A stretch of 64,000 nucleotides of DNA from Lachnospiraceae bacterium (lineage in GTDB: Bacteria; Bacillota; Clostridia; Lachnospirales; Lachnospiraceae). Made by a program: the position numbers and the translations under genes. The notes beneath the pieces were generated by a model. That model was given only the letters and a program-made list of their open reading frames with translations. It was not told the origin of the DNA and searched no databases. Position 1 is the first letter of the stretch. Each line of letters begins with the position of its first letter. The stretch covers positions 62,001 through 126,000 of the forward strand of contig JAGBNK010000018.1 of assembly GCA_017634455.1 (NCBI GenBank). Reading direction: 5' to 3'. Positions 18,934 to 29,591 of this stretch are shown here, piece by piece.

Positions 18934-19107
18934 CATTTGTAAAATGCTTTTACTCCCATGGGTAATAGGGGATAAAACACAACATATAGATATATTTGAA
19001 AAAATATATTAAAATTTTAACTAAAAAAGGTAAAGTATTAAACTGTATTGTCCGATAGAAAATCTATAAATATATTTATGCCCTTTTTTAGGGGCGGACT
19101 ATGGATA

Positions 19108-19146
19108 ATATTTAATAGAAAAACATACAATATATTTAATAGAAAA
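19108..19146. repeat. Pair of 15-base direct repeats in the leader of the giant surface gene
   Basis: ATATTTAATAGAAAA occurs at 19108-19122 and 19132-19146, 24 bases apart, and a shorter GATAGAAAA lies at 19054-19062. They sit 90-180 bases before the start codon. The rest of the gap (18934-19233) is AT-rich and shows no clear promoter pair. Confidence 0.5.
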
Positions 19147-19233
19147 TGCGCCAATATGGTGCGACGAAAAAAATATAAGGACTTGAAATCGTTTGATAAT
19201 CAGGGTACAGACGAAAGGAATAAAGGTGTTTCT

Positions 19234-22200
19234 ATGAGACAGAATACAAGATTGAAAAGTAGAATTGAGGCGTTGGTGTTAGCTGCCGTTATGGTGGTTA
19301 CAACAATATTTGCCGGACAGAGAATTCAAGCCAGTTACATGGGAGTGGGAGATGACGCATCTTCTTATGTATCAAGTGGCGGTTCTATTGCTCAGGTATG
19401 TACATCCAATGCTGCCAATTACGAGACGGTGACAGGTGGTAGCTTCAAGTTACTGCTGACAGAGGGTCAGACAGTCAACTATACTATTTCTTTATACCAG
19501 AATCTTACGGATACATCTAATCCAACCAGTGGCGAGAGAGTATGCGATATTAATAACACAGTGCCTGTTACAGGAACAGGAGAGACACGAATTGACTTTA
19601 GTGTTCCTACAACTATAACGGTTGCCAAGGGAGAGACCTTCTCAGTTGTTATTACCCTCACAAGTTCAACTGGTGTTATTTCATATTATAAGAGTACCGA
19701 TGCATCTGCCGGAGTAGGATTCGAGAAGGAAGCCTCAGGGGGATGGTACAACAGAGGAGTAAGTGTATTTGATGTAAATACAACTCCTACAGATTCCGTA
19801 TCAGATATTACAGCTGTAACCCTGAATCATTCAGCTGTATACTTTGATGCAGACGAAGATGCAACAGAGACATTGGTTGCTACCCTGACTCCAGCCTACA
19901 TGAGAACGGTAGAATTCGCAGTTACTTCTGGAAGCAGTGCCATTGTTGAACAGGCAAGCGGTGTTGTACAGAAGGCTCCATCCAATACAACTGGTAAGTC
20001 AGTTGTTACAGCTACAGCTGGTGGAAAGTCGGCTTCTGCTGATATCTATGTAATTAAGTCCGAATTAGCTCAGACAGCTTATACTTATGATGGAACAGAG
20101 AAGAAGCCTGCGGTTACAGTCACTTGTGATTCGGCTCTTACATTGGGAAATGATTATACAGTAGATTATTATGATTGCACCAACATGGGAACAGCTCGTG
20201 CGGTTGTTACAGGAAAGGGTGCTTACGCAGGATATACCAAGACTTTGGAATATACAATTGGTGCTGCGACTTTTGATCAGGCAACTGTGGATGCTGCAAC
20301 CTTTGGAATTGATATTAGTTCAGGAACAGTTACATCAGCAATTGTAGGAAGCCTTACAATGGATGTTGATTTTGTAGCTTCTGCTATTCAGACAGGAGTT
20401 AGCGCAGGTGGAAATCCTGTATATCAGATTACTGTAACGGGAATTGGCAACTACGCTGGAACAGAACTTACAAGAACTAATTATGAAGTGACTGCAAGCT
20501 CTACAAGTGCTATTGATATTTCTACAGTAGTGGATGTAGTTCTTCCATATACTAATATTGCTTTTGACGGAAGTCAGAAGAAGCCAACAGTTACTTATAT
20601 TTCAAAATATGATGGCGAGACAGAAATTGCTAATTTCAAGGACAATGTGAAATTATCTTACGGCGAAAATATCAAGGCTGGTAAGGGAACGGTAACAATA
20701 ACTGGTGATTCAACCAAGGGTTACACAGGAAGCATTACCAAGGAATTCACAATTGATAAGCGCAAGATTGCATCTGTAGATGTATCTGTAACAGATGCAG
20801 ATGGCAATATTATTCCAACAGATGGAAGTGGTAAGTTCGTACACACTTGTTCGGCTATTACACCAAATGTATCTCTTAGCATTGATAATGGAGATGGTAC
20901 ATCATACAATCTTGTGGCTGGAACAGATTACGAAGTTGATTATGTAAATAACAAGAATATTTCTCGTAGAATGATGGTTGTTCTCACAGGTAAGGGCAAC
21001 TTCAAAGGCGAGAACGAATTATATTTCTCAATCATTGGAGATTTCGAGAAGGATCCAATGGTAGCTGTAGGTGGAACTTCAGCAGTTGCGTTAAATGATA
21101 AGGTGGCTGCATCAAACTATTCTACAGTATACTCTGGCGCTAACCAGACCCCAGGCGTAGTAATTGAGATGGGCAATGTGGAGCTTGAAGAGGGAGAAGA
21201 TTATTCTCTCAGCTATTCTGCTAACAAGGATGCAGGTGTTGCTGAAATCGCAGTTACTGGACTTGGAATTTATGCAGGCAAGAGCTTTAAGACAACATTT
21301 AAAATCACACCAAAGAATATGACTGGTTCTCTCTCAATTTACAGAGAGACAAGAACATTTACCGGGGCAGAAATCACACTTCCAGCATCAGAGATCACAG
21401 TTGTCTCTGGCGGCAAGAAATTAACCAACGGTGTTGATTATGAGATTACATATGACAACAATGTAAATGTGGGTGATGCTACAGTTACAGCAACTGGTAT
21501 GGGAAATTATCAGGGTACATTGACATCTACATTCCCGATATCACCTCTAGATATTACAGGAAATGAAGATGTGACTGTAGAGCTTGATAAGACAGTATTT
21601 GAATATACTGGAAATCAGGTTAAGCCAACAGTTACTGTGAAATATCAGGGTAATGTGCTGAGAGAAAATGTAGATTATACATTGGGATTCACAGACAACA
21701 TTATGGTAGGTAGCGCTACTGCTACAGTTACTGGTAAGGGTAATTTAACAGGAACCAAGACTGCTAATTATGAGATTACTCCAAAGGGATTCGCTGGATT
21801 GACATTTACAATTGGCGGAGAGGCGGTAACATTTGATGGAGTAAATTATACTACTGCTTATGAAGCTACATACACTGGCTATGATATTAAGCCTGAGATT
21901 GTAGTATATGATGGCAATACCAAGATATATGCTATCCAAAGCTACCTGGTATCTTATGCCCACAATGTAAAGGCAGGAGAGGCTACCGTTACAATTGACG
22001 GTGTGGGCGTGTACAAGAATGCACAGGCTGTTATAAACTTTAAAATTAATCCAAAGGATATCAACGACGAGTCTATTGAAGTTCTGTCAAATGGAACAGA
22101 GAAGAAGACTGTTGATGGCAAGACATATACAGTACCTAAACTTGTAATTAATGATAATTCTCTTGCAATTAAGAAGCTGAAGGTTGATGAGTCTTACACA

Positions 22201-25200
22201 ATTAATGTGGGAGACGAGGCTATGACTTCCGGTGAGGGCAAGATTGCAACTGTTGCTGGTATGGGCAACTATACTGGTACAAGAGAGTGGGAATATACAA
22301 TTGGTAGCCCAATTACTAATGCTGCATATACAGTTGCTGATCCATATACTCATGAAGCATACGGATCAACTGCAGAGGGAACCTTCTACATTGATTACAT
22401 TGGAAATGAGAGACCTGAAATCAAGCTTACACTTTCTAATGGAACTGTAGAGCTGACTGAGGGCGTAGATTACGATATTACATATTACTCAGATACATTT
22501 AACAGCTCTGCTGATGCTGATACGTATAATACCAAGGGTACAATCAACAAGATCAGTGCGACAGTTACTGGTAAGGGCGATTACTATGGCTCATTTGTAA
22601 TTGATTACAGAATTCAGCCGGTATCATTTGAAAACACATCCAAGACATTTGATGTGACTGAAGCTAATAACTTCAAGAAAACATTTGACGGAAACCCACT
22701 GGTTCCAAATCCAACTATTGTATACGACACAATGACACTAACCAAAGGTGTAGATTACAAGGTTGAGCCGGAAAATGTTGGACCAAATGTTGGTACTTAT
22801 ACAGTTACAATTACTGGAATCGGCAACTATTTCGGCTCAATGTCCAAGACTTATACAATTGAGCAGGCTGATTTGACAGAATATACAATCAGCAATATAG
22901 AAGATCAGATTTATACAGGCAAGAAGATTGCTCCATCTATTACAGTATCAAAGGGCGGAGTTGCACTTGTTCTGGATAAGGATTATGAGGTTGCTTACAA
23001 CAACAACATAAATGTAGGCGAGGATACTGCGGAGGTAGTTGTTACTGGAAAGGGCAATTATTCCGGCACACTTACCAAGAACTTCAGCATCGTCACAAGA
23101 GATATTACTAATAACAGTAAGCTGACCTTCAGCCCAATTGATAATCAGACATATACAGGTTATGATATAACACCTGATATTACAGTATTCTATGATGGCA
23201 GACAGCTTGTGAAGGATACTGATTATGAGATTGTAAACTATGTAAATAATAAAACTGTAGGTGAGGCTACAGTAAATATTCAGGGTAAGGGAACCTTCAG
23301 TGGAACTGCAAGTACTAAGTTCAAGATTGTAGGTGATATTACCAACGGATCCCTCTTCACAGTGGAAGCATCAACCAATGTATACAATGCAACATTAGGT
23401 GCAGATGGCAAGATGAATGTAACTGGCCTGGACAAGAACAAGTTCAAGGTATATTACAATGATGTGACTACCGGAGATAAGACAACAGCTACAGTTCCAG
23501 CTGCTAATTACTCTATTGCTTACATTTGTGAGTATCCTGGAGTATGTGCTGTGTCTGTAATTGGAAATGATTATCTCACAGGTACAACAAGCTACAATGT
23601 AGATGTAAGAGGTAATTTGAATGATGCCAAGGTTATTGGCTTGAGAGATTACTATGATTACAATGGAACTGCAATTAAGCCAACAAACTTCGTTGTGACA
23701 TATAACGGCAATGTACTTACAAGAGGAACAGATTACGCAGTTGAATATGGTGAGAATGACAGTATTGGTTCAGCATCTGGATCTATCGTATTAAAGGATG
23801 CATCTAATACATATTTCACAGGTTCTAAGACTGTGACATTTCCAATCAAGTATGATTTGGCCAATGTAGTTATATCTGGTGTGGATCCAAGCTATCCATA
23901 CACAGGAAGTCAGTATAAGCCAAGTGTGACTGTAACAGGAAGTGACGGAAATCCGGTTCCTTCTGACAAATACAAGATTGAGTACGGCGAGAATATCAAT
24001 GCCGGCAAGGGCAGTGTTACAGTATCACCTGCCACAGGCCAGGAAGATGCGGTAACAGGAAGCAAGACTGTGGAATTTGATATTGTGGGATTGGATATCT
24101 CTGCTTCTACAATTGGTGGAATTGATCCAAGCTACGAATACACAGGAAGCTTGATTACACCTAGTCCAAGCGTAACCCAGGGAGGCAAATCTCTGGTAGA
24201 GGGCAAGGACTACACAGTAAGTTATGCTAACAATATGAATGCAGGAACAGCATCTGTTACTGTGATTGGTAGTGGTAACTACTATGGAACCAAGAGCGTA
24301 AACTTCAACATCTCTGCAGTTGATTTCGCAAATGTTGATTTCAGAGTTGATGATGTGGGATATGCTGGTGGACAGAATGTTGTTCCAAATATTAATGTAT
24401 CTTACAAGGGTCATACATTAACCAAGGATGTAGATTTTGCAGTAACATTTTCAAATAATACTGTAGTTACTGACCACGCTTTGGCAGTATTTACAGCAAT
24501 GGGTTCTAATTATACAGGAAGCAAGACTGTAGAATTCAAGGTTACACAGGTTAACCTTCTTGGAGGAACAGTAAGTCTGGAGAACTCATCACAGGTATAC
24601 ACTGGTGGAGTGATTGTTCCAAAGGTAACAGTTACATGCCCAATCGGTGGAAGCAACGAGACATATACTCTGACAGAACATAATGATTACGAGATTACAT
24701 ACAATGGCTCTGGTTCTATCAAGGATGCTGGAAGCTACAACATTATTGTTACTGGAAAAGGTGGATTCTACAATTCACTTAATACTACATTTGTTGTAGA
24801 TCCTAGACCGGTAGATGATGCAGAATACATCTCTATTGAGGTTCAGCAGGAAAATGATTATACAGGTCAGGCAGTTGAGCCACCTGTTGTTGTAAAGAAT
24901 ATTAAGTTGACAGGCTCTTCACAGACATTGACTGAGGGAGTTGATTATTCTATCGCTTACAAAAATAATGTGAACTCAGCAGGTAAGGATGAGACCCAGG
25001 CTCCAACAGTTACAATTACCGGATTAGGTAATTATGGTGGAACTATCGACAAGACATTTAACATAGGTAAATCAATTCAGAATGCAACTGTAAATATTGC
25101 TCCAAATAGATTTACTTATGATGGTAAGAAACATGTGCCAAGTTCATACAGCGTATACTTAGGCTCAGAACTTCTCAGAGAAGGCAGAGACTACGAATTG

Positions 25201-27060
25201 GTAGATGTGGATGATCCGATAAATGCAGGAACCAAGACATTTGCTGTAAAGGGTATTGGAAATTATTATGGAACCCCTTCCAAGACATATGAAATAGCTC
25301 AGAAATCTGCTAACTTAAGTAAGATTAGAGTTGTATTAGAAGGTCTTGAAAAGGATGAAAATGGTAAGTATTATGCTGTATACAATGGCAGCAGCTTCGA
25401 GCCAACTGTCAAGGTATATGATGATGAGATTTCAACAACAGAGCCATTGACAGAAGACAATTACGCATTTGAATATAACAACAATCACGATGTGAGCACA
25501 GCTGGAAGCAAGGCAAATGTTACTATACATTTGAAGGGCAATTATGCAGTTGGTGCGGATACCAAGGTATGTGAGTTTGAAATTAGACCAAGAGATATAA
25601 CTGGTCAGTTCGAGATTAACTTCGCTGAGGACAGAATTCCTTATACAGGCAATGAGATTGTTCCAGTATTTACAGTTGATTACAACGATGGAGTAAATCC
25701 TACAGTAACTCTTGAGTCAACAGATTATGAACTTACTCTTACCAACAATGTAAATGCAGGCTTTGCTACAGCCAAGGTTACAGGTGTTGGCAATTATGTA
25801 GGTGAAGTTGAGAAAGACTTCATCATATATGCAAACCTGGCAGATGCTGAGGTAAATATTCCAACTCAGTTCTATACTGGTGAGGCAATTAATCCTCCAG
25901 TGACAGTGATCTGCGGTGGTAATACTTTGGTTCAGGATGTAGACTTCGAGGCTACTTATAATGAGAGCGAAACTCAGGGCGTGGCTACAATCACTCCTGT
26001 TAGTCAGTTCTACACTGGTAGCACAGCAGCTACATATGATATAGGATTTGACCCAGCACTTTTGATTGTATCTGGCTATGCAAATGAGATTGTATATACT
26101 GGCAAGGCAATTACTCCAGACTTTGTTGTGACAATGCCAAATGGTCAGGAAGTAAATTACGATCCAAAGAATGTGGTTTACACAGATGCAAAGGGTGGAC
26201 ATGACAATGTAAATGTTGGCGCTATAACAGTTACTATTCCTTTGGATATCAAGGGTCAGGAAGAAATCCTCACAGTGAACTTTGCGATTGTTCCAAAGAA
26301 TATAAATGACTGCCAGGTTACACAGCTGATGAACAATACATATACAGGTTCGCCATTGAATCCACCTGTAACTATTGTGTATAATGATAAGGAATTGACA
26401 TCTGGAAAGGAATTTATTGCAAGCTATAGCAATACAACATTCCCGGGAACAGCAACAGTTGAAGTACAGGGAATTGGTAACTTTACAGGAACCAAGATGC
26501 TTCACTTCAATATTGTAAGTCCAGCGGTGGTATCACTGTCAGCCAAGGCATTGTCCACAAGTTCCATTAATCTGGCTTGGTCTAGATTTGGAGCTCCAAC
26601 TGGATACCAAATCTACTCACAGGATTGCAAGACATTATATGGTACTACAACAGGAAATAATTATGTGGTAGGTGGTTTGAATCCACAGACAGCATACACA
26701 TTCAAGGTTAGATCTTATGTGGTACACGGTGGTGCAACATTCTTTGGACCATGGAAGGAAGTTACTGCAACTACTCAGGTTGCCAAGGTTGCAATGGCAG
26801 GAACTTCAAATATTTCCAAGAAGGCTGTATTGACATGGGGAGCTAATCCTGATGTAGGTGGATATGAAATCTACAGAAGTGATTCTCCAAATGGAAATTA
26901 TAGCAAGGTTGCTGTTATGCCAAATACAGTTACATCTTATACAAATACTGGATTGAAGAGCGGCAAGACATATTACTATATCATCCGCGCTTACAAGAAG
27001 GTAAATGGAGTGTATGTATATGGTTCCTATTCAGATGCTATTGCGATAACAGTGAAATAG
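19234..27060 (+). CDS. Giant secreted repeat protein with two C-terminal fibronectin type III domains
   Basis: 2608 residues from ATG at 19234 (AAAGGTG five bases upstream); the frame is open to a TTG at 19048, but that lacks a ribosome site. A signal peptide (basic start, hydrophobic 12-28, cut near QAS-YMG) is followed by a beta-rich N-terminal region and an Ig-like segment (about 190-272). From about 275 to 2428 run some 26 diverged repeats averaging 83 residues, each of the form YTGxxxxPxVTV, DYxxxYxNNxNxG, VTGxGNYxG, FxI. Two fibronectin type III domains (about 2429-2608) finish the protein. There is no LPXTG-like motif, membrane anchor or choline/SLH domain. It is first in an operon with a sortase 14 bases downstream. 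A role in adhesion or surface-layer building is inferred. Confidence 0.85.
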   Translation: MRQNTRLKSRIEALVLAAVMVVTTIFAGQRIQASYMGVGDDASSYVSSGGSIAQVCTSNAANYETVTGGSFKLLLTEGQTVNYTISLYQNLTDTSNPTSGERVCDINNTVPVTGTGETRIDFSVPTTITVAKGETFSVVITLTSSTGVISYYKSTDASAGVGFEKEASGGWYNRGVSVFDVNTTPTDSVSDITAVTLNHSAVYFDADEDATETLVATLTPAYMRTVEFAVTSGSSAIVEQASGVVQKAPSNTTGKSVVTATAGGKSASADIYVIKSELAQTAYTYDGTEKKPAVTVTCDSALTLGNDYTVDYYDCTNMGTARAVVTGKGAYAGYTKTLEYTIGAATFDQATVDAATFGIDISSGTVTSAIVGSLTMDVDFVASAIQTGVSAGGNPVYQITVTGIGNYAGTELTRTNYEVTASSTSAIDISTVVDVVLPYTNIAFDGSQKKPTVTYISKYDGETEIANFKDNVKLSYGENIKAGKGTVTITGDSTKGYTGSITKEFTIDKRKIASVDVSVTDADGNIIPTDGSGKFVHTCSAITPNVSLSIDNGDGTSYNLVAGTDYEVDYVNNKNISRRMMVVLTGKGNFKGENELYFSIIGDFEKDPMVAVGGTSAVALNDKVAASNYSTVYSGANQTPGVVIEMGNVELEEGEDYSLSYSANKDAGVAEIAVTGLGIYAGKSFKTTFKITPKNMTGSLSIYRETRTFTGAEITLPASEITVVSGGKKLTNGVDYEITYDNNVNVGDATVTATGMGNYQGTLTSTFPISPLDITGNEDVTVELDKTVFEYTGNQVKPTVTVKYQGNVLRENVDYTLGFTDNIMVGSATATVTGKGNLTGTKTANYEITPKGFAGLTFTIGGEAVTFDGVNYTTAYEATYTGYDIKPEIVVYDGNTKIYAIQSYLVSYAHNVKAGEATVTIDGVGVYKNAQAVINFKINPKDINDESIEVLSNGTEKKTVDGKTYTVPKLVINDNSLAIKKLKVDESYTINVGDEAMTSGEGKIATVAGMGNYTGTREWEYTIGSPITNAAYTVADPYTHEAYGSTAEGTFYIDYIGNERPEIKLTLSNGTVELTEGVDYDITYYSDTFNSSADADTYNTKGTINKISATVTGKGDYYGSFVIDYRIQPVSFENTSKTFDVTEANNFKKTFDGNPLVPNPTIVYDTMTLTKGVDYKVEPENVGPNVGTYTVTITGIGNYFGSMSKTYTIEQADLTEYTISNIEDQIYTGKKIAPSITVSKGGVALVLDKDYEVAYNNNINVGEDTAEVVVTGKGNYSGTLTKNFSIVTRDITNNSKLTFSPIDNQTYTGYDITPDITVFYDGRQLVKDTDYEIVNYVNNKTVGEATVNIQGKGTFSGTASTKFKIVGDITNGSLFTVEASTNVYNATLGADGKMNVTGLDKNKFKVYYNDVTTGDKTTATVPAANYSIAYICEYPGVCAVSVIGNDYLTGTTSYNVDVRGNLNDAKVIGLRDYYDYNGTAIKPTNFVVTYNGNVLTRGTDYAVEYGENDSIGSASGSIVLKDASNTYFTGSKTVTFPIKYDLANVVISGVDPSYPYTGSQYKPSVTVTGSDGNPVPSDKYKIEYGENINAGKGSVTVSPATGQEDAVTGSKTVEFDIVGLDISASTIGGIDPSYEYTGSLITPSPSVTQGGKSLVEGKDYTVSYANNMNAGTASVTVIGSGNYYGTKSVNFNISAVDFANVDFRVDDVGYAGGQNVVPNINVSYKGHTLTKDVDFAVTFSNNTVVTDHALAVFTAMGSNYTGSKTVEFKVTQVNLLGGTVSLENSSQVYTGGVIVPKVTVTCPIGGSNETYTLTEHNDYEITYNGSGSIKDAGSYNIIVTGKGGFYNSLNTTFVVDPRPVDDAEYISIEVQQENDYTGQAVEPPVVVKNIKLTGSSQTLTEGVDYSIAYKNNVNSAGKDETQAPTVTITGLGNYGGTIDKTFNIGKSIQNATVNIAPNRFTYDGKKHVPSSYSVYLGSELLREGRDYELVDVDDPINAGTKTFAVKGIGNYYGTPSKTYEIAQKSANLSKIRVVLEGLEKDENGKYYAVYNGSSFEPTVKVYDDEISTTEPLTEDNYAFEYNNNHDVSTAGSKANVTIHLKGNYAVGADTKVCEFEIRPRDITGQFEINFAEDRIPYTGNEIVPVFTVDYNDGVNPTVTLESTDYELTLTNNVNAGFATAKVTGVGNYVGEVEKDFIIYANLADAEVNIPTQFYTGEAINPPVTVICGGNTLVQDVDFEATYNESETQGVATITPVSQFYTGSTAATYDIGFDPALLIVSGYANEIVYTGKAITPDFVVTMPNGQEVNYDPKNVVYTDAKGGHDNVNVGAITVTIPLDIKGQEEILTVNFAIVPKNINDCQVTQLMNNTYTGSPLNPPVTIVYNDKELTSGKEFIASYSNTTFPGTATVEVQGIGNFTGTKMLHFNIVSPAVVSLSAKALSTSSINLAWSRFGAPTGYQIYSQDCKTLYGTTTGNNYVVGGLNPQTAYTFKVRSYVVHGGATFFGPWKEVTATTQVAKVAMAGTSNISKKAVLTWGANPDVGGYEIYRSDSPNGNYSKVAVMPNTVTSYTNTGLKSGKTYYYIIRAYKKVNGVYVYGSYSDAIAITVK

Positions 27061-27074
27061 GAAGATAACATATA

Positions 27075-28202
27075 ATGGCTCAGGAAAAAGATACACAGAA
27101 ATCTAAATATTCAATCGGCGAATATTCTTTTGCATCATTTCATGAATACAGAGATGGTCTTGAGGATGTTCGCAAGATTGAGATTATAAATGAGAAATTA
27201 AATATTCAAGATCCAGAGGTGGCTGTACGTTTGTATAATGACATTCGCGAGGGGCGTATAGCCTTTAAGTCACCTATTGGTGATGAGTTTTATGCTCACT
27301 TGGCAGATATAGTAGCGGACAAATCCGTGGATTTGCTGGAGGATAAAGCCACAGTAGAAGAGGCAGAGGACAAGATGAAATACCAGAAGTATATAGGTCT
27401 GGCATTTATAATCGTGGCAGTTGTCTCTTTTGCTATATTTGGAATTGCAGAATTGCGAGACATAATAACCACCAGACAGGCTGCCAAGATGGCGGAACAG
27501 GTTCAGCAGGAACAGGCTGAGAAGGCTGCCCAGGCTGCCAAGGAACAGTCTGATAAGAACGGTGAAAACGGTGGAAATGGACAGAACACAGGTGATAATA
27601 CAGTTGTAACTACAATGGAAATTCTTCCAGAGTATGTGGACTTGCATAACCAGAATAATGACATGGTAGGCTGGCTCAAGATTGAGGGAACCAATATTGA
27701 TTATGTAGTTGTGCAAAAATCAGGAGATAATGAATACTATTTGAATCATGCTTTTGATGGAAGCAGTAATTCAAATGGTTCTATTTTCATGGATTACAGA
27801 AGCAATATTGTCACACCTACAACCAATACTATTATTTATGGTCACAATATGAAGAGTGGTATGATGTTTGGCGGATTGAAAAATTATCTGTCTGATGGAT
27901 ATTTAGATAGCCATAAATATATTAATTTCAATACATTATATGAGAACAGACAGTATGAAATTGTTGCAGTATGTCTGTCTCAGGTGCAATATCAGGATGA
28001 CGCTTTTGCATACAGATATTATGATTTCATATCTGCTGGAACGGATGAGGAATTTGAGATGTTCAGGCAAAACGTAGACTCTCTGGCAGTTGTTGGCAAC
28101 GCGGATGGACTTACAAGAGAGGATAAATTATTGACTCTGTCTACATGTAATAGTTATACTGAGGACGGAAGACTATTTGTAGTAGCCAAACAAGTACAAT
28201 AG
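27075..28202 (+). CDS. Class B-like sortase with N-terminal cytoplasmic extension
   Basis: 375 residues. Unusually, about 112 polar residues (with EYSFASFHEYRDGLEDVRKI) come before the only membrane segment (about 113-135), followed by an Ala/Gln/Gly linker and the sortase domain from about 178. Catalytic residues are visible: H257 in IIYGHNM, C358 in LSTCNSY and R366 in DGRLFVVAK. The YGHN and TLSTC context matches class B. It lies between two exported surface proteins, so it probably anchors at least the downstream leucine-rich-repeat protein to the wall by transpeptidation outside the membrane. Confidence 0.9.
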   Translation: MAQEKDTQKSKYSIGEYSFASFHEYRDGLEDVRKIEIINEKLNIQDPEVAVRLYNDIREGRIAFKSPIGDEFYAHLADIVADKSVDLLEDKATVEEAEDKMKYQKYIGLAFIIVAVVSFAIFGIAELRDIITTRQAAKMAEQVQQEQAEKAAQAAKEQSDKNGENGGNGQNTGDNTVVTTMEILPEYVDLHNQNNDMVGWLKIEGTNIDYVVVQKSGDNEYYLNHAFDGSSNSNGSIFMDYRSNIVTPTTNTIIYGHNMKSGMMFGGLKNYLSDGYLDSHKYINFNTLYENRQYEIVAVCLSQVQYQDDAFAYRYYDFISAGTDEEFEMFRQNVDSLAVVGNADGLTREDKLLTLSTCNSYTEDGRLFVVAKQVQ

Positions 28203-28249: not shown

Positions 28250-29533
28250 ATGAGAAGAGGAACAAAGATTGGATGGCTTTTAGTTGCCGTATCATTAATA
28301 CTTTCTGTTTGGGTTATTTCAAGCCAGTCATCAAATGCTACAACACTTGATGGTGGATTTGAAGTAAGTGATGTGGACCCTACAGTATTACAAGGATATA
28401 CAGGACCAGGTGGAGCAATTACTATACCTAGTAGCATTACATCCATCAATGCTGCTGTATTTGCCAATAATACTTCTATCACATCAGTTACAATGCCGGA
28501 TACAGTTACATCTATGGGTTCTGGAGTGTTCCAGGGATGCTCAAATTTGTCCAGCGTGATTTTGAGTGGCGGTTTGACAGCTATTCCAGATAATACTTTC
28601 AGAGAGTGTACAAGTTTATCAAGTATATCTGTACCAGGAGGAGTTATATCAATTGGAAGCAAGGCTTTCTATGAGACTCCTATTTCAAGTATTTCAATAC
28701 CAGCTGCAACAACATCTATTGCATCAGATGCATTTCAGCAGGCCAAGAACTTAACATCTATAAATATTGCAGGTGGAAGTTCAGCTTATTCTTCTTCTGA
28801 TGGTTGTGTATATAATGCATCGGGTTCTAGACTTTTGATAGTACCTGAAGGCAAGACTGGAGTGACTATATCAGCAGGAACTACAACAATCGGTTCCGGA
28901 GCATTTAGAGATTGCACTAATAGTGCTTCCCTGTCATTGCCAAATTCTGTTACAACTATTGAGAACAACGCATTTAGCGGAAGTGGAATTGGTACAATTA
29001 CAATACCAGCTGCAACAACATCTATTGCAACACAGAGTGGTTGGACACCATCTTCTATATATGGATATGCTAATTCTCAGGCAGAGACATATGCTATGGA
29101 CAATGGTATTCCATTCTTTGTAATCGGTGGTAGCGAAGATGATGACAATGGTAACACTGATAATGGCAATGGTGATAATGGTAATACTGACAATGGCAAC
29201 ACAGACAACGGTAATACTGACAATGGCAATGGAAATAATGGCAATGGTGGAGCAGTAGATCCTGGCAATGGAACAGGAACTAATGGAGCTGGTGGAACAG
29301 CAGTAGATGCCAATGGTAATCCAATTCCTGGTGGCAATGGAGGCGTTGCAACAGGAACTGCAAATGGTACATCAAATGGAGCGGGCGGCCATACATTGGA
29401 TAATACACCAACAACAGCAGATGGAATCGACACTAGATATTTCTTGTGTATCGCAATTTTTGCAGGCGGTGTTGGCGTGATTATGTATAGTAGATTTGGC
29501 AAGATGAAATATTTAAGTGAGAAAAAGAAATAG
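28250..29533 (+). CDS. BspA-type leucine-rich-repeat surface protein with noncanonical sorting signal
   Basis: 427 residues. A signal peptide (1-31) precedes BspA-like leucine-rich repeats (about 50-280; pattern ITSIxxxAFxxCTSLSSIxxPxxVxxI). Seven pentapeptides of the DNGNT/DNGNG type (from residue 299) follow, then a Gly/Asn/Thr-rich linker. The C-terminus is a sortase-like signal: TPTTADG at 386-392, a hydrophobic stretch and a basic tail RFGKMKYLSEKKK. The Ala-Asp replaces the usual Thr-Gly. It lies 47 bases after the sortase gene, its likely enzyme. BspA-type repeats often mediate binding to host or particle surfaces. Confidence 0.88.
   Translation: MRRGTKIGWLLVAVSLILSVWVISSQSSNATTLDGGFEVSDVDPTVLQGYTGPGGAITIPSSITSINAAVFANNTSITSVTMPDTVTSMGSGVFQGCSNLSSVILSGGLTAIPDNTFRECTSLSSISVPGGVISIGSKAFYETPISSISIPAATTSIASDAFQQAKNLTSINIAGGSSAYSSSDGCVYNASGSRLLIVPEGKTGVTISAGTTTIGSGAFRDCTNSASLSLPNSVTTIENNAFSGSGIGTITIPAATTSIATQSGWTPSSIYGYANSQAETYAMDNGIPFFVIGGSEDDDNGNTDNGNGDNGNTDNGNTDNGNTDNGNGNNGNGGAVDPGNGTGTNGAGGTAVDANGNPIPGGNGGVATGTANGTSNGAGGHTLDNTPTTADGIDTRYFLCIAIFAGGVGVIMYSRFGKMKYLSEKKK
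29144..29248 (+). repeat. 15-base tandem repeat, seven units, coding for DNGN(T/G)
   Basis: Seven in-frame 15-base units encode Asp/Asn-Asn-Gly-Asn-Thr/Gly with silent differences between units. This in-frame array in the wall-spanning linker could expand or contract by slippage or recombination without breaking the frame. Confidence 0.85.
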
Positions 29534-29555: not shown

Positions 29556-29591
29556 ATACCCTTCAGGTGACACAGCCTGGAGGGTATTTTT
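29556..29591 (+). terminator. Rho-independent terminator of the surface-protein operon
   Basis: A 12-base stem with one G-T pair (29556-29567 with 29576-29587) around an eight-base loop, followed by a T run. Confidence 0.88.

Follow-up and report, generated by a model that had tools for sequence, protein, structure and literature searches.

A leucine-rich repeat (LRR) protein encoded in the stretch of Lachnospiraceae DNA analysed here (64,000 nucleotides; the window) is the probable substrate of a class B sortase encoded directly upstream, which would cleave it between Thr and Ala of a TPTTADG motif and transfer it to the cell wall. On the sequence evidence we give this explanation as a whole a probability of about 0.85. 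The tail appears to be a genuine and conserved class B sorting signal with a residue other than Gly at P1′ and a sortase of its own, a view that is well supported by comparison of related loci.

Gene layout and register of the sorting signal

The features of the locus, all on the forward strand, are as follows.

19048-27060, +, giant repeat/FN3 protein gene (ORF; Pfam fn3; the listed start is TTG and the true start may be later)
27075-28202, +, class B sortase gene, 375 aa (PF04203; TIGR03064; AF2 model)
27105-27347, +, folded uncharacterised cytoplasmic domain, sortase residues ~11-91 (AF2 pLDDT)
28250-29533, +, BspA-type (LRR_5) LRR protein gene, 427 aa (ORF; Pfam LRR_5 6.2e-43)
29390-29530, +, C-terminal sorting signal HTLDNTPTTADGIDTRYFLCIAIFAGGVGVIMYSRFGKMKYLSEKKK (profile match G000:C15:91390-91530; tail alignment; column conservation)
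29405-29425, +, motif TPTTADG (P4 T, P3 P, P2 T, P1 T, P1′ A, P2′ D, P3′ G)
29437-29530, +, part of the sorting signal: hydrophobic stretch, then basic cytoplasmic end (translation)
29556-29591, +, intrinsic terminator-like site 3′ of the LRR gene (13-bp stem plus T run)

The FN3 and sortase genes are separated by ~14 bp, and the sortase and LRR genes by ~47 bp. Because the terminator-like site, the probable end of the operon, follows the LRR gene, the layout suggests a single three-gene operon with the LRR gene last. The giant repeat/FN3 gene is the usual first member of this cassette, a comparable large gene being present 5′ in most orthologous loci. Its product has no sorting signal of its own; the C-terminus of this protein (RAY...YG.YS...V) is alike in most loci.

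The LRR reading frame is intact and encodes a hydrophobic N-terminus, the LRR domain, an Asn/Gly-rich linker and the C-terminal signal. LRR_5 repeats (PF13306, 6.2e-43) combined with an N-terminal signal peptide, the latter judged by eye from the hydrophobic N-terminus, place it among BspA-type LRR surface proteins, and LRR_5 is also present in 28 of 29 homologous neighbour proteins. The tail has an xPxT core followed by a hydrophobic stretch and a basic end. At P1′, where Gly (or Asn or Ser in SrtB signals) is expected, Ala is found in the window and in 21 other loci.

The earlier note on this DNA had correctly described the coordinates, the LRR protein, the TPTTADG string with its hydrophobic stretch and basic tail, and the adjoining sortase, all of which are seen in the sequence and in ORF and Pfam searches. 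Its reading of Ala-Asp in place of Thr-Gly was one residue off. In an alignment of 20 homologous tails, P1 Thr is retained, Ala occupies the Gly position (P1′) and Asp is P2′; the register is fixed because eight of the 20 read TPKTG. By this alignment TPTT|A is a sorting motif of the usual xPxT|G kind in which Ala replaces Gly at P1′, and the window motif deviates from xPxTG by that one residue, plus Thr at P4. Cleavage is predicted between P1 Thr and P1′ Ala. The window tail gave no match to the NCBIfam sorting-signal models at E ≤ 10, and a homologous TPKTG tail was borderline in TIGR01167 (14.1 bits vs 15.9). TPxTAD tails thus escape the curated models used here, and counts of anchored proteins in gut Lachnospiraceae are probably too low.

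The upstream gene encodes a class B sortase

The 375-aa product of the gene at 27075-28202 consists of an N-terminal cytoplasmic domain, one transmembrane helix and a region matching PF04203. Against the class B model TIGR03064 it scored 153.0 bits (E 8.1e-45), 0.75 bit below the curated cut-off of 153.75. His257, Cys358 (in TLSTC) and Arg366 are invariant across 33 orthologs. An AF2 model built from the 33-sequence alignment (mean pLDDT 80) was compared with known structures using Foldseek, where Bacillus anthracis SrtB was the best match (E 2.3e-19), the top 19 matches were all class B sortases, and class A, C, D and E structures matched far more weakly. B. anthracis SrtB was also the best match when the sequence profile was searched against solved structures. 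The gene 5′ of the LRR gene encodes a class B sortase, and its modelled fold resembles that of B. anthracis SrtB. A 95%-identical relative of the sortase was found in a Lachnospiraceae bacterium.

Conservation of the sortase-tail pair

Orthologous loci were collected by searching genome contigs and family genomes with the sortase, and family genomes also with the tail profile. About 50 were obtained, in which the gene pair is kept, usually with a third gene upstream; the Ala tag lies beside the orthologous sortase in ~20 related species. The protein encoded after the sortase carries T-P-x-T-[A/G] in 49 of 49 usable loci, 22 with Ala and 27 with Gly. Two of these tails (L140 and L187) were read by hand, and in L187, from the relative genome G169, the sortase and tail genes are on different contigs. 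Across the 49 loci, P4 Thr, P3 Pro and P1 Thr show zero changes on the tree, P1′ changed twice and between Ala and Gly only, P2 nine times and P5 20 times. Within the 22 Ala loci, Ala is invariant with sortases down to ~40% identity, while P2 changed nine times and P5 12 times; P6 Asp is present in 22/22 and P2′ Asp in 21/22. The tail motif is not due to chance, since T-P-x-T-[A/G] is kept in all 49 loci and the tail profile matches strongly only here in the genome.

As a single transmembrane segment is plausible and no curated sorting-signal model matches, the tail might be an ordinary, uncleaved membrane anchor. We consider this very improbable: such an anchor would not retain six residues that lie outside the membrane (P6 D, P4 T, P3 P, P1 T, P1′ A, P2′ D) in 21-22 of the 22 loci, and the conserved tails always lie beside a catalytically intact sortase.

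On a wider sortase tree the P1′ state requires five changes, at least three of them forced by well-supported branches. Shuffled P1′ labels required ~19, and none of 500 shuffles was as low as five, a clustering to which near-copies contribute. By these comparisons the Ala/Gly state follows the sortase tree and the Gly/Ala switch happened several times. Ala was also observed beside a second, related group of class B sortases serving proteins of 1,600-2,000 aa that end in [T/S]PKTAD[G/P]IHPKWF (L183, L188 and L189); sister loci of this group have Gly, a parallel Gly/Ala switch.

Other substrates and sortases

The window's genome (2.3 Mb) was searched by patterns and profiles. A profile of the 20 tails gave a strong match only at the LRR protein tail. 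Two weak matches were also inspected: one (G000:C19) is a real Gly-type APKTGDS tail, and the other (G000:C20) was rejected as a tail, sitting within a large membrane protein away from its C-terminus. A second PxTADG string (G000:C5) lies inside no ORF of at least 60 aa and was dismissed as chance. The genome has four sortases, including that of the window, and Gly-type APKTGDS signals (L047:3417-5186; L225), one of which is beside another sortase.

In the relative G169 (93% complete), the single PF04203 match is the ortholog, 50% identical to the window sortase, although the missing part of the assembly may hold a second one. This genome encodes three proteins ending in TPRTADLSVD, TPKTADLSIG and TPKTADFGVE, on two contigs other than that of the sortase. 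The earlier note had held that its proposal would fall if no further protein carried the motif; this is the situation in the window's genome as searched, but not in the wider group, where G169 has three.

The dedicated enzyme-signal pair proposed by that note has stood up well. It is well supported at the sequence level because the motif is kept in 49 loci, Ala is invariant in 22, and G169 combines one sortase with three TPxTAD tails; the conserved gene pair and the agreement of the P1′ state with the sortase tree point the same way. Against the pairing we count that the window's genome has one motif protein, and that its three other sortases could in principle act on the tail.

Other loci of the genus were also encountered. 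The gene L049:10102-12792, a neighbour of a different class B sortase of this genus, and its orthologs (L053 and L055) encode proteins in which PPKTG or PPNTG precedes an acidic C-terminal tail, kept in three species; these tails have no clear transmembrane stretch or basic end. Three small-substrate loci (L047, L051 and L056) were considered as orthologs with a swapped P1′ (Gly, Ser and Ala), a proposal weakened by sortases just 32-42% identical.

Proposed mechanism and specificity at P1′

In the mechanism we propose, the LRR protein would be the cognate substrate of the sortase encoded directly 5′, its hydrophobic and basic C-terminal tail keeping it in the membrane after export. The sortase would bind D-x-T-P-x-T-A-D, and Cys358 would attack the Thr-Ala bond to give an acyl-enzyme, from which the LRR domain would be passed via Thr to an amine. 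The likeliest acceptor is meso-diaminopimelate, either in peptidoglycan or in its precursor. The signal corresponds to TPKTG on the orthologous substrate in sister lineages, with Ala in place of Gly at P1′. We infer cleavage at T|A, a covalent bond to the wall and the identity of the amine; what is observed is the conserved gene pair and motif, a class B fold with its catalytic site intact, and co-inheritance.

The suggestion in the earlier note that cleavage specificity is altered fared less well. Such a sortase would prefer Ala and reject Gly at P1′, and with its substrate would work apart from the Gly-type sortases of the cell as an orthogonal channel. The invariance of Ala in the 22 loci despite the changes at P2 and P5, its repeated gain or loss along with the sortase lineage, and the APKTGDS signals of the same genome, one adjoining another sortase, are in its favor. 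However, the motif deviates by one residue, Gly and Ala have switched several times, and no sortase residue tracks the switch: among columns separating Ala from Gly lineages, none was convincingly seen again in L141/L182 (vs L185), an independent pair with Ala, no active-site residue is shared by the independent Ala lineages, and the best discriminating columns are clade markers. In addition, P4 differs too (Thr vs Ala/Ser), so that orthogonality could rest on P4 instead of P1′, and the P1′ position of class B motifs is known to tolerate G, N or S (PMC11987632). We therefore regard altered specificity as possible but doubtful.

A permissive pocket that accepts either small residue, with Ala a tolerated substitution fixed by descent in this clade, is the simpler reading, because known class B motifs vary among G, N and S at this position and LPXTA signals have class D sortases as partners, and we somewhat favor it. 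Gly to Ala is a single nucleotide change, related sortases of the genus adjoin signals with P1′ Gly, Ser or Ala (APKTG, SPKTS and SPKTA), and the tolerance is documented for the LPKTS motif of AbpA and for SrtB motifs (PMC4974636, PMC11987632). The full conservation of Ala across 22 divergent loci nevertheless argues for at least some constraint. Separate anchoring channels in the same genome, perhaps through P4, are possible, given the Gly-type tails noted above. Natural Gly/Ala pairs such as L185 vs L141 and L182 offer a direct way to examine how class B sortases select the P1′ residue, and a SrtB that accepts Ala could find use as an orthogonal ligase.

Comparison with known sorting systems

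The closest solved structures are those of B. anthracis SrtB, which likewise has a dedicated substrate, IsdC (NPKTG). This enzyme requires P2′ Asp and benefits from P5 Asp (PMC11987632), a need that the conserved P2′ Asp of DxTPxTAD fits; the upstream Asp is at P6 here, and IsdC differs in P4 Asn, P1′ Gly and its role in haem uptake. Clostridioides difficile SrtB and its (S/P)PXTG substrates share the clostridial class B enzyme, xPxTGD together with hydrophobic and basic segments, a cleavage site after Thr and diaminopimelate as likely acceptor (PMC4155245, PMC5118464), but have Ser/Pro at P4 instead of Thr, Gly at P1′, several substrates and an N-terminal membrane segment of just 26 residues. 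In Mediterraneibacter gnavus, of the same family, most of SrtB1-6 group in a clade of their own and have candidate substrates encoded nearby, and SPXTG proteins, which carry a Gly signal unlike that described here, depend on SrtB3 to reach the wall (PMC13121745).

Residues other than Gly at P1′ are known elsewhere. Streptococcal SrtB is encoded beside its dedicated substrate AbpA (LPKTS-AVK; PMC4974636), but this tail is very short, has no transmembrane segment and belongs to a polymerising system. Class D sortases recognise LPXTA/LPNTA and sometimes lie beside the substrate (PMC3617157); they differ in class, in P4 Leu and in the many substrates per genome in B. cellulosilyticus. A literature search, largely of papers outside subscription journals, found no report of Ala-type class B signals or of a Lachnospiraceae TPxTA motif. 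Within that literature no earlier class B signal has Ala at P1′, and LPXTA is a class D precedent.

N-terminal domain of the sortase

The transmembrane helix of the sortase is preceded by a conserved domain of ~80 residues, for which the AF2 model has pLDDT mostly of 86-92 across residues 11-80. If the catalytic domain is extracellular, this N-terminal region has to lie in the cytoplasm. No significant match to it was found in Pfam, NCBIfam or the PDB. A broader proposal for the cassette of giant repeat protein, sortase and LRR protein is that the Ala-P1′ switch created an orthogonal channel and that this new domain couples anchoring to a cytoplasmic partner, which we consider unlikely. If the domain does regulate the enzyme, this would be unusual for a sortase. 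Searches of the family showed that the domain, with the pattern YxIGxYxF...EYRDAQEDxKKI...DPEVAxRLYNxIRxGxIxFKSxIG, recurs in membrane proteins of ~200-300 aa across Lachnospiraceae (L220:1983-2843; L207), one of which, in the window's genome, adjoins a response-regulator gene.
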